Shown here: in pieces, positions 3,860 to 39,528 of the stretch
How the letters are laid out: each line of letters starts with the position of its first letter
Position numbering within the stretch: position 1 is the stretch's first letter
NCBI GenBank assembly: GCA_945902755.1
Contig: CAMDNC010000004.1
Coordinates: forward strand, 1 to 46,212
Origin: Flavipsychrobacter stenotrophus
GTDB taxonomy: Bacteria > Bacteroidota > Bacteroidia > Chitinophagales > Chitinophagaceae
Reading direction: 5' to 3'
Length of the DNA stretch: 46,212 nucleotides
Position numbers and translations under genes: made by a program
The notes under the pieces: model-generated
The model's database searches: none
Seen by the model: only the letters and a program-made list of their open reading frames with translations
Told to the model about the DNA's origin: nothing

Positions 3860-4453
3860 CTAATATTCCTTTATCCACAACTTCAGCAGATCGTTGTGGA
3901 AAGTAGCGCATAGCTTGTAGCAGCCCGGTATTTCGGCTACAGACAACCAATAGGTGGCCAAACGTGTGCCATTGGGCATTGCCTTTAGCTGGCTGAGCAG
4001 GTGATGGTTGTATAGGTCGTAAAGCTCTGACGATCGCTCTATTTTATCGTCGAGCGAGTCTTCGAGTACTATATTCTCGTGAAACGAGTTGTAGAAATAT
4101 ATGCCTGTGTAAGTAGACAGGTCGAGGTCGGTGAAATTGCCATGAATGAGTTTTGCATTGTTGATGCCCAGCTTAGTTATGACCTTATTGCCAGCCTGTA
4201 CAAAGTTGCGCCGCTGCTCTATGCCATAAAAGGTAGCGGTAGTGAAGTGTGCAGCTGCAATGCAAAATTTGCCTGCACCAGCCCCGATATCTATAATGCG
4301 GGCATTGGGCGAAGCTGCCAAAAAATGACCTGCAGCACGCGCAATGTGCAGGGGGGTCCAGTGCATCTCAGACAGGTTGCGGATGTATATGGGATACAAA
4401 CTATCGAAAGCAGTATCTGTACTGAAGTAATCGGTATGGGTGTGTGAAGGCAT
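3860..4453 (-). CDS. class I SAM-dependent methyltransferase
   Basis: A 197-residue protein when started at the ATG at 4453 (MPSHTHTDYFS). An ATG further upstream at 4522 would add a 23-residue extension that runs across the -7 box at 4462-4469, so I reject it. The SAM-binding motif I reads IDIGAGAGKFCIAA, followed by an acidic residue in YGIEQRR and by NAKLIHGNF (motifs II/III). The SFHENI stretch comes next. The fold is that of small Rossmann methyltransferases of the type listed as generic class I enzymes; the substrate cannot be told from the sequence. It lies 86 bases downstream of the helicase gene on the same strand but has its own promoter-like box, so co-transcription is doubtful. 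Confidence 0.7.
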   Translation of the reverse strand: MPSHTHTDYFSTDTAFDSLYPIYIRNLSEMHWTPLHIARAAGHFLAASPNARIIDIGAGAGKFCIAAAHFTTATFYGIEQRRNFVQAGNKVITKLGINNAKLIHGNFTDLDLSTYTGIYFYNSFHENIVLEDSLDDKIERSSELYDLYNHHLLSQLKAMPNGTRLATYWLSVAEIPGCYKLCATFHNDLLKLWIKEY

Positions 4454-4461
4454 TAGTACCA

Positions 4462-4469
4462 CAAAATTA
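4462..4469 (-). promoter_or_regulatory. Bacteroidota -7 box (TAATTTTG) for the methyltransferase gene
   Basis: On the minus strand the box reads TAATTTTG, matching the TAnnTTTG consensus. Only 8 bases separate it from the ATG at 4453, so the transcript would start about 3-5 bases before the start codon. No clear -33 TTG is seen at the usual distance. Confidence 0.45.
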
Positions 4470-23492: not shown

Positions 23493-23500
23493 TACCTTTG
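23493..23500 (+). promoter_or_regulatory. -7 box TACCTTTG abutting the DUF502 start
   Basis: A full TAnnTTTG match followed by C. It ends 6 bases before the ATG at 23507. TTTG in the box creates an in-frame TTG at 23498 that must not be taken as the start. A TTTTG lies 15 bases upstream as a possible -33 element. Confidence 0.6.
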
Positions 23501-23506
23501 CAGCTT

Positions 23507-24100
23507 ATGCGGCGTATTGCTTCCATTTTACTTCGTTCGTTTCTTCAGGGCCTTATATTACTCAGCCCCATTGCACTTACGGGTTATCTACTTTTTACTA
23601 TATTCACCAGCGTAGACAGTTTGGTACCCTCTATGCCCAGGGGCATCGGTTTTCTGGCCATAATAGGTACTGTAACTGTAATAGGGTATCTAGGTACACG
23701 TTTCTTTGTGGGTAAATGGCTATTCGACTCTTTTGCCTACCTCATGAGCCACACGCCTGGCGTGAAGTATATCTATTCTTCCATCCGCGATGTAGTAACC
23801 TCATTTGTGGGAGATAAAAAAAGATTTAACGAAGCAGTATGGGTGAGGGTGAATGAAAACCCTGAAATATGGCGCATAGGCTTCCTGACTAGAGATGATA
23901 TGGGGAATATGGGCATGGCTGGAAAAGTGGCTGTTTACTTGCCACACGCCTATGCTATATCTGGCTGGGTGATAGTGGTTGATCGTGCTAATACGAAACG
24001 TGTAACGAATATGACATCGGGCGAGGCAATGAAATTTGCTGTAAGTGGCGGTATCACCACTGTCGATGAATTAGAACAAGAGAATGAAAAGGAAAATTAA
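23507..24100 (+). CDS. DUF502 family membrane protein
   Basis: 197 residues from ATG 23507 (MRRIASILLRSF). Two transmembrane segments near the N-terminus (LILLSPIALTGYLLFTIF, and FLAIIGTVTVIGYLGTRF) and a soluble rest with MSHTPGVKYIYSSIRDV, a DUF502 signature. Function unknown; DUF502 proteins are widespread and sometimes called transporter-like. The 3' end overlaps serC by 17 bases, so these two are transcribed together. Confidence 0.88.
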   Translation: MRRIASILLRSFLQGLILLSPIALTGYLLFTIFTSVDSLVPSMPRGIGFLAIIGTVTVIGYLGTRFFVGKWLFDSFAYLMSHTPGVKYIYSSIRDVVTSFVGDKKRFNEAVWVRVNENPEIWRIGFLTRDDMGNMGMAGKVAVYLPHAYAISGWVIVVDRANTKRVTNMTSGEAMKFAVSGGITTVDELEQENEKEN

Positions 24101-25187: not shown

Positions 25188-26090
25188 CTAAATGTCGTAC
25201 GCTACACCTTCTTCGCTTACTATTACATTAGCAAAGTGCGCCATAGCCTCCTTACCAAATTCGTCTAGATCTTTGTATTTAGACGAGAAATGCCCCAACA
25301 ATAGCAAACCGGCACCCGCCTTTGCCGCCAGCTGGGCCGCTTGTGCCGCAGTGCTATGATGGCGTGCTGCTGCTTTATCAGCATCTTGCTCCAGATAGGT
25401 ACTTTCGTGGTAGATGGCGTCTACACCATTTATATGTTCTAGGTAATCCTCTGTGTACAATGTATCAGCGCAGTAAGCATACTTCTTAGGTGCGGGCCCC
25501 TCTTCTGTTACCCATTCATTTTTTACAATGTTACCATCTGGCAGTAGGTAGTCATGTCCTTGTTTCAGTAGTTCAAAACCATCTGTAGGTATGTCATACT
25601 CTTTACATTTGTCAGGCAGTATTCGTCGGCCTCTGGTTTTGGTAGTGATCAGGAATCCAAAACAAGTAATGCCATGGGACACCGGAAAACACTTTACAGT
25701 ATAAGAAGGAGTGTCGGCTAGCATACCTCCGTTTTCAGGTAGCTCATTGAAAAAGAAAGGATAGTTGAGTGTAGTATTTGCGGCAGCCAGTATTGCATCT
25801 AGTATTGGTTTTAATTCCTTTGGGGCATGCAGGTATAATGGTGCAGTGCGCCCCATAAGGCTCATACTATTGATGAGACCTGGCAATCCAAAATAATGGT
25901 CGCCGTGCATATGACTGATAAACAAGTGCTGAACATTTTTCCACTTCACGCCATACCGCTGCATTTGAATCTGTGTGCCTTCACCACAGTCTATTAGCAG
26001 CACCTCGCCATACACAGTTACCGCCTGCGATGTAGGATGTCGCCCAAATGCAGGCAATGCAGAATTGTGACCAAGAATTGTTACCCTCAT
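25188..26090 (-). CDS. rnz: ribonuclease Z (tRNA 3' processing endonuclease)
   Basis: 300 residues. Metallo-beta-lactamase fold with the zinc motif SHMHGDHYFGLPG (HxHxDH). Further ligands appear in VSHGI, the ADTLYTEDY region and LLGHFSSKY. HESTY and HHSTAAQAA belong to the RNase Z C-terminal motifs. The protein begins MRVTILGHNSALPAFGRHPT, the usual start. It cuts 3' trailers from tRNA precursors. A TATATTTG box lies only 5 bases before the ATG. Confidence 0.95.
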   Translation of the reverse strand: MRVTILGHNSALPAFGRHPTSQAVTVYGEVLLIDCGEGTQIQMQRYGVKWKNVQHLFISHMHGDHYFGLPGLINSMSLMGRTAPLYLHAPKELKPILDAILAAANTTLNYPFFFNELPENGGMLADTPSYTVKCFPVSHGITCFGFLITTKTRGRRILPDKCKEYDIPTDGFELLKQGHDYLLPDGNIVKNEWVTEEGPAPKKYAYCADTLYTEDYLEHINGVDAIYHESTYLEQDADKAAARHHSTAAQAAQLAAKAGAGLLLLGHFSSKYKDLDEFGKEAMAHFANVIVSEEGVAYDI

Positions 26091-26095
26091 TGATA

Positions 26096-26103
26096 CAAAT
26101 ATA
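26096..26103 (-). promoter_or_regulatory. -7 box TATATTTG abutting the rnz start
   Basis: A full TAnnTTTG match on the minus strand, 5 bases before ATG 26090; the mRNA would be leaderless or nearly so. Confidence 0.55.
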
Positions 26104-26518
26104 ACTATCTGCAGTCATTCAGTATATAACTACTTATACCCGATATTGTACAGCTTAATCGGCATCATAAAATTACTAATAGTTTCCAACAACGGCGCGC
26201 AAACCATAAATGGACTGACATTACAACAAACCAACCATTGGATGCTGAAAACAACAAAGAACAATGTGAAGCAAGCGCAGCACTCTGCAATATTGGAGCT
26301 GCTTCTGGCTCAGCTACACTGCTGTTCAGCTACCGATAATCTAATGGTTTTTTTGCCTTATATCAATACAAACGTCTACACAACTGATATCTATCAGTAA
26401 ATAAATTATATAGTATTGACCATCGTCATTTTAACAGAAGTCAAATTATTACAAGTTTGCTATATAATCAGTTCACAACTATAGTTAAAACATTATCAAC
26501 TGCAAAAATAAAATAAAA
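26104..26518 (+). other. gene-free AT-rich region between rnz and the histidine kinase
   Basis: About 430 bases between starts of the divergent genes. An 84-codon open frame at 26146-26400 begins with TTG and has no recognisable pattern or promoter; I think it is chance. The only clear signal is CAAGTTTG at 26452-26459. Confidence 0.5.
26452..26459 (+). promoter_or_regulatory. -7-like box CAAGTTTG for the histidine kinase
   Basis: CAAGTTTG followed by C is one base off TAnnTTTG; the leader to 26519 is about 55 bases. Confidence 0.35.
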
Positions 26519-29399: not shown

Positions 29400-31049
29400 T
29401 TATTCTGCTGTTTGTATTGGCTCATCTTGTGGTTGGTCGTCTGCAGCAGCTACTACTTCAGTTGTTGCCGCTGCAGGCTCTGTATGCGTGGCAGGAGCAG
29501 GTGTTGTTGCTTTTTTACCATATTCATCCTGCAAAGCAGCATATTTTTCTTTCAGACGTTTTATTTTTTGTTGCCCCTCTACAAGCAACTTTTCCAGATG
29601 TTTGCGCAGTTCTTCTGCCTTCTTGCCTGGAGTTATGTTTTTGAGCGCCTCAGCAAAATCTACTAGTTTTTCTTCTTCCTCGGCAATATCTGTCAGTAGT
29701 TTGCCAACCATTTCTTTGGCTTGCTCCGTACGTACTTGTTTTTGTACCTCTACAAACTGTTTGCGTTGCTCGCGGTTGGCATCTTTGCGAGCAAAGAAAT
29801 GCTTGCGAGCAGCAATAAATTCATCCCAAATCTTATTTGATACATCGCGCGCTACCGGACCTATTTTTTTCCACTCATCCAGCAATTCATTCATTTCGGC
29901 TGTAGTGTCGTTCCAGTTTGTAGCATTTTTTATCTGATTGGCACGGTGCAACAGTTCCATTTTCAGGTTGTAGTTCTGCTCATGTACCGTACGTATACCT
30001 TCTGTGTGCTGTTTTTTTGCTGAAAAGAAATGCTCTTGGGCCGCCATAAATCTTGCCCATACTTCTTCTCCCTTGTCACCATTTACCCTGCCTGTTTTTT
30101 TCCATTCTTCCATCAGGGCAGCATAGGCTAGTGATGTAGCATTCCAGTCAGTACTTTCTTTGAGTGCTTCGGCTTTCTCGGCAAGTGCAGTTTTCTCCGC
30201 AAAAAACTGTTCTTGTTCTTTTTGTATACGGTCAGTATGTTCTCTTTTGCGGTCAAAGAAGGTAGCCTTTGCCGCTATGAAGCGTTGCCATAGTTCTTCG
30301 TTCTTCTTGCTCAGGGTATGACCTATCGTCTTCCACTCGTTAGTAAGCCTGTGAAAAGTGTCGGCAGTTTTCTTCCACTCTACCGATGTTGCTAATGATT
30401 CAGCCTGCTCCACAAGATCCATTTTCAGGTCCAGATTCACCAGCAAATCCTTTTCTTGTTCTTCAAAGAACTGCTTCCTACGGTCGTTAAACTTATTTTT
30501 GGCAGCTTCTATGCGGTTCCATAGTTTATCGCTGCGAAACTTATCTGCATATCCGCTTAATTTCCATTTTTCTATCAGGTCGCGTATAGCTGCGTTAGCA
30601 TCTTTCCAGTCATTGCTGTCAGCTAGTGCTTCTGCTTGTTCTGTAAGAGCCAGCTTCACCGCATAGTTTTGCTCTGTTAGTTCACTTACTAGCTTGTCCC
30701 ACTCAGCTACTTCTGCACTTAGTTTCTCTAGATTTCCTATTGCAGCAGCGCTGTTAAGTGCACTTTTGAGTGAATGCACCTTTTCAGCCATTTTTATTTT
30801 GTCTTCAGTTGCATTCCATTCGGTAGCTGTGTCGGCTACTCTCGATTGGAGTGCGTAGTATTTTTCGCCCAACGAACTTAGCATCGCAATGCTATTTTCT
30901 GGAGTCAATTCTGCTATCAGCCGTTCTCTTCCTTCATGACCGGCATAAATTACCAATTTTCCGTCTTCGCTCAGCGTAAAAAGTTCCTTACCATCGAACG
31001 ATAAATCGTTCCACCATGAGATAATGTCAAAATTCTGTTCCTGCAACAT
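29400..31049 (-). CDS. DUF349 repeat protein
   Basis: 549 residues from the ATG at 31049 (MLQEQNFDIISWWNDL). An ATG at 31103 would put an 18-residue extension across the promoter box at 31055-31062, so I prefer 31049. At least four DUF349 repeats are visible, each with WK-x-G, LW-x-RF-x-AA and FF-x-R spacing, for example ELWQRFIAAKATFFDRKRE and EVWARFMAAQEHFFSAKK. The protein is helical and highly charged, with an Ala/Pro/Gln-rich acidic tail. The family is widespread in Bacteroidota; function is not established. It precedes SUI1 in one operon. Confidence 0.9.
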   Translation of the reverse strand: MLQEQNFDIISWWNDLSFDGKELFTLSEDGKLVIYAGHEGRERLIAELTPENSIAMLSSLGEKYYALQSRVADTATEWNATEDKIKMAEKVHSLKSALNSAAAIGNLEKLSAEVAEWDKLVSELTEQNYAVKLALTEQAEALADSNDWKDANAAIRDLIEKWKLSGYADKFRSDKLWNRIEAAKNKFNDRRKQFFEEQEKDLLVNLDLKMDLVEQAESLATSVEWKKTADTFHRLTNEWKTIGHTLSKKNEELWQRFIAAKATFFDRKREHTDRIQKEQEQFFAEKTALAEKAEALKESTDWNATSLAYAALMEEWKKTGRVNGDKGEEVWARFMAAQEHFFSAKKQHTEGIRTVHEQNYNLKMELLHRANQIKNATNWNDTTAEMNELLDEWKKIGPVARDVSNKIWDEFIAARKHFFARKDANREQRKQFVEVQKQVRTEQAKEMVGKLLTDIAEEEEKLVDFAEALKNITPGKKAEELRKHLEKLLVEGQQKIKRLKEKYAALQDEYGKKATTPAPATHTEPAAATTEVVAAADDQPQDEPIQTAE

Positions 31050-31054
31050 AAAGG

Positions 31055-31062
31055 CAAAACTG
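31055..31062 (-). promoter_or_regulatory. -7-like box CAGTTTTG abutting the DUF349 start
   Basis: CAGTTTTG on the minus strand ends 5 bases before ATG 31049; one base off TAnnTTTG. Confidence 0.45.
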
Positions 31063-31195
31063 AGTTTTTTATTGCCAAAAAATTCTGGCAATCGGACAAG
31101 CACTGTTGTGTCATCCTGCTATACAATTGGTGCAATTTAGTGCTATTTTACATTTAGCCAAAGCACACCCAATAGAAACATTAATAAAATTCAAG

Positions 31196-37578: not shown

Positions 37579-39426
37579 CTATTCTTGATTGAGCTGTATA
37601 AGATCTGGCGCTGTGATGTAATTGCTCCTGTATCTGAACCGAACATTGGTATTGGTCACTATCTTAAAACCCCTCATATTATCAGGCGCAACCGGAAAAA
37701 AGAACGCACGTATTTCTATCGTCTCAAATACCAGGTTTTCGTTGCGGGTGCGGATTCCTGCACCCAGTGCGCTATACAGCCTGGCTTGGTCTGCTGGTAC
37801 GTTCTCTGGGGTTATCAGGCTCAGGTTAGCCCACGGAAATGTAGCCACCTGAAAACCTAGTATTTTGAAAGGGAAGTAAAACACAGTTTCTAATTGCAAG
37901 CTGAGTCGGCGAGTACCATAGGCCGAGTCCGACAGAAAACCCTGAAGACCATAATAATTATTGATGTAGAGCGGCGCATAGGTCACCCTATTATGCAGAT
38001 GTGTATAGCTAAAATTGATGTACTGCCTTATCATCAGTGCATTCCAGAACTGCAATCTGCTATACGCTGTCGCACCTACAAGGATGCTCGCATCTTGTAT
38101 CTTGCCCTGATGCAAAAAACCGCCAGTTCGCATAAAAACATTCACAAAGCCACCAGAACCAGTTGCCAGATATCGCGATGCATTGATACCTGCATAGGGT
38201 CTTATCATCCCAAGTTGCTCATGAACACCACCTGTAACAGATACATTGTACCCATACGGCAAATCCTCTGTGGTACCAAAACCATATATATACTGTGTTT
38301 TGTAATAATTTTGTCTGAAAAAAGTAAACTGAGCCAATGCTGCCCGCGAGCTATTAAAAACAGGATTGAACTGCTCGCCTATGCGGGGTGGCACTTCCCT
38401 AAAGTCCCTCTGATAACAACGTACCGCCAAAAACCTACGGTCACGTATAGTATTGTTGGTAGCAGTGAGTTGCCTTATGCCTATATTATAACCCGCCCAG
38501 CCATCTAACAAGTAATACCTGTACTTATTGAAAATAGTATCTGATAAATTGTAGAGATTGTATGACCTGTTGTAACTCACAGTCAATGCCCCCGCAAACC
38601 TTGAGTAAGGCGACACAAGCCTACGTGTGAGCTGCAAATAATCGGTCGACTCCTCTGCTCGTGTATAGGGGCTTACATATATCTCGCTATGACCTACAGT
38701 AGCATCTATATAGGTGTGCCCCACATTGTTTTTGCGGTAGTAGGCACCACCACCCCTTGCCGGTGAGCGGTCACGATTATAGAGCCCCGATAGCTCTAGC
38801 CGCTGCCCCATACCACCCAGATTAGCATCATAGAGCTGTGCAGTAGCCATGCGTACACCTTGCGCACCCGCACCACCACCTATACTGAACAGGTCTTTGG
38901 TGTACACCCGCACATCTACCGAGTCAGGATTGCCAGGTATGCTATCTATGTATATCCGCACATCATTGATATACTCTAGCGAGCGTATAAATCGTTCGTT
39001 ATCTGCCACCATATAGGCATTCACCTGCATACCCTCCTTTATAAACAGGTTGTTGCGTATTACAAACTTGCGTGTAGCAAGGTGCAGCCTCTTACCAATA
39101 CGCGCACCTAAACTCTCATCTCGCTCACAAGAGTCAGTTATAGACCTATCAAAGCTCAATGTCTGTATGTCTATATTTCTTATAATTTTGCCTTGATAAG
39201 GCATGTATGCATCCTCACTTTTTTTGTTGAGAAAACTACCATCATCATGTGTTTTCATCATAGAAAACACTACTTGTTGTAGTGCCTTATTTACTCGCGT
39301 ACTTCTGGTAAACTGCAGTTTCTGCACCAAAGCACTGTCGCTATCGGGCAAGCCCTGCGCCATTGCCTCTGCACATCGCAGACACAGTACCACAACCATA
39401 AACCTAAACAGCAGTTTTGTTTTCAA
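37579..39426 (-). CDS. BamA/TamA-like outer-membrane beta-barrel protein
   Basis: 615 residues starting with TTG at 39426; the signal peptide MKTKLLFRFMVVVLCLRCAEAM needs that start, as no in-frame ATG lies upstream before a stop. A POTRA-like part lies at about 75-175 (IIRNIDIQTLSFD, RSLEYINDVRIYID, DSVDVRVYTKDLFS). The rest is beta-barrel with alternating strands, for example DANLGGMGQRLELSGLY, and a final aromatic-rich strand (RFRYRSNYI). Proteins of this type sit in the outer membrane; an assembly role is possible but unproved, as the POTRA region is short. Upstream distance to the GT2 gene is 167 bases. Confidence 0.8.
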   Translation of the reverse strand: MKTKLLFRFMVVVLCLRCAEAMAQGLPDSDSALVQKLQFTRSTRVNKALQQVVFSMMKTHDDGSFLNKKSEDAYMPYQGKIIRNIDIQTLSFDRSITDSCERDESLGARIGKRLHLATRKFVIRNNLFIKEGMQVNAYMVADNERFIRSLEYINDVRIYIDSIPGNPDSVDVRVYTKDLFSIGGGAGAQGVRMATAQLYDANLGGMGQRLELSGLYNRDRSPARGGGAYYRKNNVGHTYIDATVGHSEIYVSPYTRAEESTDYLQLTRRLVSPYSRFAGALTVSYNRSYNLYNLSDTIFNKYRYYLLDGWAGYNIGIRQLTATNNTIRDRRFLAVRCYQRDFREVPPRIGEQFNPVFNSSRAALAQFTFFRQNYYKTQYIYGFGTTEDLPYGYNVSVTGGVHEQLGMIRPYAGINASRYLATGSGGFVNVFMRTGGFLHQGKIQDASILVGATAYSRLQFWNALMIRQYINFSYTHLHNRVTYAPLYINNYYGLQGFLSDSAYGTRRLSLQLETVFYFPFKILGFQVATFPWANLSLITPENVPADQARLYSALGAGIRTRNENLVFETIEIRAFFFPVAPDNMRGFKIVTNTNVRFRYRSNYITAPDLIQLNQE

Positions 39427-39528
39427 TCTGGCACAGTATTCAATGACAACAGCACAAAAATCATGCTATTGTACAAATATAGCCGTATGTGGCTTAGTAT
39501 ACTAACGCTACAAGTATTCATTAAAGTA

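Follow-up and report, generated by a model that had tools for sequence, protein, structure and literature searches.

TAnnTTTG, the -7 box of Bacteroidota promoters, adjoins the start codon of a DUF502 gene in Flavipsychrobacter stenotrophus, raising the question of whether the mRNA of this gene, and of others like it, begins with the start codon itself. The window analyzed here is a stretch of 46,212 nucleotides, contig C4 of an assembly of 3.52 Mb in 266 contigs. A preliminary description of the window had pointed out such boxes at four genes, encoding DUF502, ribonuclease Z (rnz), DUF349, and a methyltransferase-domain protein, and had proposed near-leaderless mRNAs for all four. Re-reading the sequence returned each box at the same position and distance from the ATG (Table 1), with an exact TAnnTTTG for DUF502, rnz, and the methyltransferase and one mismatch for DUF349. 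The transcription start site (TSS) had been placed about 3 to 5 nt past the box, which is close to the report for Flavobacterium johnsoniae, where the distance from the -7 box to the TSS is 4 or 5 nt in many cases (PMC6847099). With a usual start site 4 to 5 nt, perhaps up to 7 nt, past the box, a box ending 4 to 7 nt before an ATG would put the TSS on the A of that ATG or within 1 to 2 nt of it.

Table 1. Features of the window discussed in the text
Feature	Position	Strand	Description
Putative -7 box TACCTTTG of DUF502	23493..23500	+	TACCTTTG-CAGCTT-ATG, 6 nt to ATG
DUF502 coding sequence, ATG 23507	23507..24100	+	Pfam PF04367, E 1.6e-23
Putative -7 box TATATTTG of rnz	26096..26103	-	TATATTTG-TATCA-ATG, 5 nt to ATG
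rnz (ribonuclease Z) coding sequence	25188..26090	-	NCBIfam NF000801, above cut-off
Box TAATTTTG at the methyltransferase gene	4462..4469	-	TAATTTTG-TGGTACTA-ATG, 8 nt to ATG
Methyltransferase-domain coding sequence, ATG 4453	3860..4453	-	Pfam PF13847, E 6.1e-10
One-off box CAGTTTTG at DUF349 (preliminary description)	31055..31062	-	CAGTTTTG-CCTTT-ATG, 5 nt to ATG, one mismatch
TAAATTGC, likely promoter of DUF349, an instance of the conserved TAnnTTGC box	31132..31139	-	82 nt to ATG
DUF349 coding sequence, ATG 31049	29400..31049	-	Pfam PF03993, E 3.5e-67

Conservation of the four boxes in relatives

In all 35 genus genomes, TAnnTTTG stands 4 to 7 nt ahead of the DUF502 start, with 29 of the boxes at 4 or 5 nt (13 at 4 nt, 16 at 5, 4 at 6, and 2 at 7), and the box reads TACCTTTG in 27 of them. 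The DNA farther upstream has diverged, most columns there showing 30 to 60% agreement except for a T 4 to 5 nt ahead of the box. The start codon is ATG in 32 of these genomes and GTG in 3. The DUF502 relatives include metagenome-assembled genomes labelled Taibaiella sp., Chitinophagaceae bacterium, and Sphingobacteriales bacterium. Among 14 loci from other genera or families, 11 could be placed and 3 could not, and one of them (L189, 6 nt) was scored as abutting by eye; in the named relatives L037 and L044, the box lies 18 nt upstream. A leaderless mRNA is the best reading for DUF502, which we regard as a strong candidate. The longest DUF502 open reading frame (ORF), which would begin at TTG 23498, starts inside this putative promoter box, an example of how annotated starts could be corrected simply by looking for an abutting box.

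The rnz box abuts the start in 13 of 34 orthologues. It is present in 12 of 20 stand-alone copies, defined as those where no ORF of 80 or more codons on the same strand ends within 60 nt, versus 1 of 14 copies that closely follow another gene (Fisher p 0.003, uncorrected for relatedness). The single closely following case, L064, was scored as abutting in these counts and is probably a chance match; its box overlaps the upstream stop codon, and its start is TTG. For L049, the contig extends just 26 nt upstream of the gene, which leaves its neighbour out of view. An A at -1 is found in 8 of 12 abutting copies. The rnz gene is a fair candidate for a leaderless mRNA in part of the genus.

The one-off box at DUF349 was found only in the source genome and in G007, two near-identical genomes, and thus in 2 of 33 orthologues. 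One-off strings close to the start also occur in two further orthologues, but these are unrelated to it. A TAnnTTGC box lies 38 to 84 nt upstream in 33 of 33 orthologues (the start codon of two of these was picked among nearby in-frame ATGs). CAGTTTTG is, on these counts, probably not the DUF349 promoter, and since TAnnTTGC sits this far upstream in every orthologue, the mRNA is probably leadered and outside the leaderless class. The conserved box fits TAnnTTGY, the SM5 promoter of Flavobacterium psychrophilum, which was assigned to a probable alternative sigma factor (PMC9723704). SM5 was assigned there to other genes, and the likeness for DUF349 is a match of sequence.

The DUF349 leader in the window (31050-31139, minus strand) contains the inverted repeat ATTGCCA...TGGCAAT. 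The 33 leaders often fold as a hairpin of differing sequence, with a mean z of -1.1 and 19 of 33 below -1 relative to mononucleotide shuffles. In L100 and L103, the hairpin is followed by a T run, resembling a terminator or attenuator.

For the methyltransferase, a box lies 7 to 8 nt from the candidate start in 5 of 22 orthologues and 13 to 49 nt from it in 6, and the remaining 11 have none. These figures cover 22 of 30 loci (L105-L125 and L132), 8 more distant ones being left out, with start codons picked among nearby in-frame ATGs. A single set of four genes was therefore rejected, DUF349 having its conserved upstream TAnnTTGC and the methyltransferase box being poorly conserved. The proposed leaderless state survives as a prediction for DUF502 and, in part of the genus, for rnz; it probably does not apply to DUF349, and it may or may not hold for the methyltransferase. 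The expectation that relatives keep the box at the same distance fared likewise, holding for DUF502 and for rnz in part of the genus, failing for DUF349, and mostly failing for the methyltransferase.

Boxes abutting start codons as a class

TAnnTTTG alone occurs in the window at chance frequency (54 matches versus 49.2 expected), and therefore only its placement relative to start codons can be meaningful. Eight strict TAnnTTTG-N3-10-ATG strings are present, three of them the exact boxes of Table 1. The remaining five comprise two intragenic copies on the same strand, one intragenic antisense copy, one copy ahead of a 13-codon ORF, and one (26491-26510) ahead of no called gene.

Larger samples comprised 386 kb of the source genome (an 11% sample) together with the window, and 400 kb of a second genome of the genus. 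A box 3 to 8 nt ahead of a candidate in-frame start was found for 14 of 267 genes in the former, versus 1.24 expected, and for 16 of 250 in the latter, versus 0.83, the expectation being derived from 29 letter-permuted motifs. Every in-frame ATG lying between the preceding stop and the called start was considered, and its distance from TAnnTTTG was measured. The called starts come from a simple home-made codon-usage caller, which misplaced the DUF502 start; taken alone, they gave 9 and 12 abutting boxes, with controls of about 1.0 and 0.6. Genome-wide raw counts made without gene calls, in which intragenic copies are mixed in, were 214 for TAHHTTTG-N4-7-ATG versus 143 for the reversed pattern and 637 versus 470 for TANNTTTG-N3-10-ATG.

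Chance could produce such boxes, as AT-rich DNA contains many copies of TAnnTTTG, some of which will land before an ATG. This is true of the five other strings in the window, probably of the one-off DUF349 box, and possibly of the methyltransferase box. For DUF502, chance is excluded by the conservation in 35 of 35 genomes, and for the class it is excluded by the permuted controls, and we consider it a highly improbable account of the whole.

Eight genomes of other genera and families, sampled at 100 kb each, have a box 3 to 8 nt ahead of the start in 22 of 559 genes, with about 2 expected. The box-to-ATG distances are two-humped in the two genus genomes (26 at 4 to 7 nt, 17 at 8 to 15, and 51 at 16 to 25) and also in the other eight (18, 9, and 46 in the same bins). 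With bins picked after viewing the histogram, the first hump exceeds the dip at binomial p values of 2e-4 (genus) and 4e-4 (others), and the second at 7e-4 and 1e-5. The idea that abutting boxes are special to the genus was rejected, as the genomes from elsewhere show the same two humps, though the genes differ. With controls subtracted, abutting boxes make up 22% and 29% of the boxes within 3 to 40 nt in the two genus genomes, and 7 to 38% in the eight others, where numbers are small.

The second hump bears on whether the motif acts in DNA at all. Being conserved and fixed in position ahead of the ATG, it could instead work at the RNA level, as a translation or regulatory element, with transcription from promoters farther upstream and ordinary leaders. 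We find this very hard to credit. TAnnTTTG is already known as the -7 box, and its second peak lies at 16 to 25 nt, where a promoter gives an ordinary leader; rnz is without the box where it closely follows another gene, and the upstream columns of DUF502, mnmG, purB, and arginase contain no second conserved box.

The mnmG, purB, arginase, and era genes, whose names rest on NCBIfam, were chosen for an abutting box in one genome; they therefore demonstrate that fixation of this state is possible but say nothing about its frequency. The box abuts in 30 of 30 loci across the genus for mnmG and in 30 of 30 for purB, where all are at 4 to 5 nt and 27 at exactly 4 nt (30 loci each, out of 33 matching genomes). 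It abuts in 26 of 30 genus rows for arginase, a denominator that includes a fragment without a start (L318) and a paralogue (L320), and in 17 of 30 loci for era. Over the six gene sets formed by these four with DUF502 and rnz, the box abuts in 149 of 186 orthologues, without exception at 4 to 7 nt; in this count, L064 of rnz was omitted by hand and the arginase rows L291-L317 were used (25 of 27 abutting).

By eye, all 13 era orthologues without TAnnTTTG (among L261-L290) have TAnnTTTA at the abutting position of 4 to 7 nt, as do both full-length arginase misses, L314 and L316, suggesting a tolerated variant of the last base. Elsewhere in the class, 29 purB loci have the box at 4 nt in 2 cases, at 14 to 28 nt in 9, and farther away in 2, and 16 are without a strict box. 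Among the loci without it (within L321-L349, other genera and families), several were seen by eye to have TAnnTTCG-like strings instead, perhaps a variant of the -7 box.

The control gene dapF, leadered in the source genome, has a box in 19 of 29 loci, at distances spread over 4 to 36 nt, and none in 10, two of which had little upstream DNA. Four of the 29 have a box at 4 to 7 nt (3 at 4 nt and 1 at 7). One of 30 loci, L419, was dropped as a fragment, and start codons were picked among nearby in-frame ATGs. Set against the fixed genes, this scatter indicates that abutting boxes are gained or lost in some genes and fixed in others. They are retained across the genus in DUF502, purB, mnmG, and arginase, and gained or lost in rnz and dapF.

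A box that is a promoter may still leave a leader of 1 to 5 nt, the mRNA being near-leaderless and the exact start site unselected. The orthologue spacing does range from 4 to 7 nt, and outside the six gene sets distances of 8 or 10 nt occur in the methyltransferase and in individual copies of dapF, so that 7 nt is no strict limit. However, the 29 DUF502 boxes at 4 or 5 nt and all purB boxes match the reported box-to-TSS spacing, and the counts dip at 8 to 15 nt, and we regard retained short leaders as unlikely. Both the tight spacing and the dip that follows suggest transcription beginning at the start codon itself, with leaders of a few nucleotides disfavoured.

We favour, at a probability of about 0.75, the reading that a -7 element of the Bacteroidota housekeeping sigma factor adjoins the start of DUF502 and, within this part of the genus, that of rnz. 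Conservation of the box, its narrow spacing, and the two-humped distances are seen in the sequence; use of the box as promoter, the position of the TSS, and initiation at a 5' end are inferred. The mRNAs would be leaderless, with the ribosome initiating at a 5'-terminal AUG (GUG in a few relatives), and both genes would be members of a discrete class comprising about 5% of the genes in the genus, with DUF349 outside it.

More tentatively, and with less than even confidence, the reading might be extended to Bacteroidia at large. A discrete leaderless class would then hold about 4 to 6% of genes, or roughly one-fifth to one-third of the genes with TAnnTTTG within 40 nt in the genus studied, with the start codon as TSS and leaders of a few nucleotides avoided. 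Selection would keep core genes (purB, mnmG, and DUF502) leaderless as a second translation route in bacteria whose ribosomes do not use Shine-Dalgarno sequences.

Relation to known leaderless genes and promoter architecture

Published shares of short leaders in the phylum are low: 3.7% of 5' untranslated regions under 10 nt in Bacteroides thetaiotaomicron (PMC7366714) and 5.5% leaderless mRNAs in F. psychrophilum (PMC9723704). In F. johnsoniae, leaders exceed 10 nt for 87% and are at most 10 nt for 13% (PMC6847099). The first two figures weigh against our preferred reading. The published leaderless mRNAs resemble the candidates here in being a minority of genes with TAnnTTTG adjoining the start codon. 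They were measured by RNA-seq, whereas ours are predicted from sequence in another, uncultured lineage; beyond the published cases, the present data add conservation per gene over a genus and a two-humped distance profile.

Of 37 Bacteroidetes/Chlorobi genomes in a 2011 survey, 1 was recorded as having leaderless genes; by its own account, the survey sought only Pribnow-like promoters (PMC3160421), and a class defined by the -7 box may explain why it found almost none in this group. The leaderless genes of Actinobacteria and Deinococcus-Thermus in that survey share the signature of a promoter box a few nucleotides ahead of the start codon. There, the box is Pribnow-like and the genes make up 19 to 39% on average (PMC3160421), whereas the present candidates have the Bacteroidota -7 box and amount to about 5%. 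On the strength of base biases, leaderless mRNAs were suspected in the phylum by a study of 2017 (PMC5397173). Judging mostly from listings of the open-licence literature, we found no report of conserved leaderless genes or of a two-humped leader distribution in the phylum. That a minority of Bacteroidota mRNAs is leaderless is thus already known; new relative to the literature found would be a discrete, conserved cohort with tight spacing. The modest but real result, in our view, is that leaderless candidates forming a partly conserved class can be recognized from sequence in Bacteroidia. Bacteroidia ribosomes are reported to fail to recognize Shine-Dalgarno sequences (PMC9976891). How they select starts is still under study, and genes with a promoter box fixing the start codon would supply test cases for leaderless initiation in the phylum.

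In 120 pooled, related box sequences, the AT content is 0.80 to 0.81 at 4 to 6 nt ahead of the box and 0.78 at both 14 and 22 nt, a pattern resembling the AT-rich blocks that have been described near -18 and -28 in F. johnsoniae (PMC6847099). A -33 TTG/TTTG element has been reported for Bacteroides and is described as not evident in F. johnsoniae. The 120 pooled boxes show no TTG peak at -33, and there is a small TTG excess 15 nt ahead of the box (10 versus a mean of 3.1). No TTG occurs within 30 nt ahead of the rnz and methyltransferase boxes. Abutting and leadered genes of the genus do not differ significantly in a pyrimidine at -1 (p 0.50) or an A at -3 (p 0.34). The spacers between box and start codon are poor in A (6 to 17%) in five of the six gene sets, and the rnz spacer has 31% A.

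The 13-codon ORF of the window (MIFVLLSLNTVPD; within 39423-39481, minus strand) has TATATTTG 9 nt ahead of its ATG and ends on the TTG start of the gene at 37579-39426, and it is perhaps a leader peptide with coupled translation.
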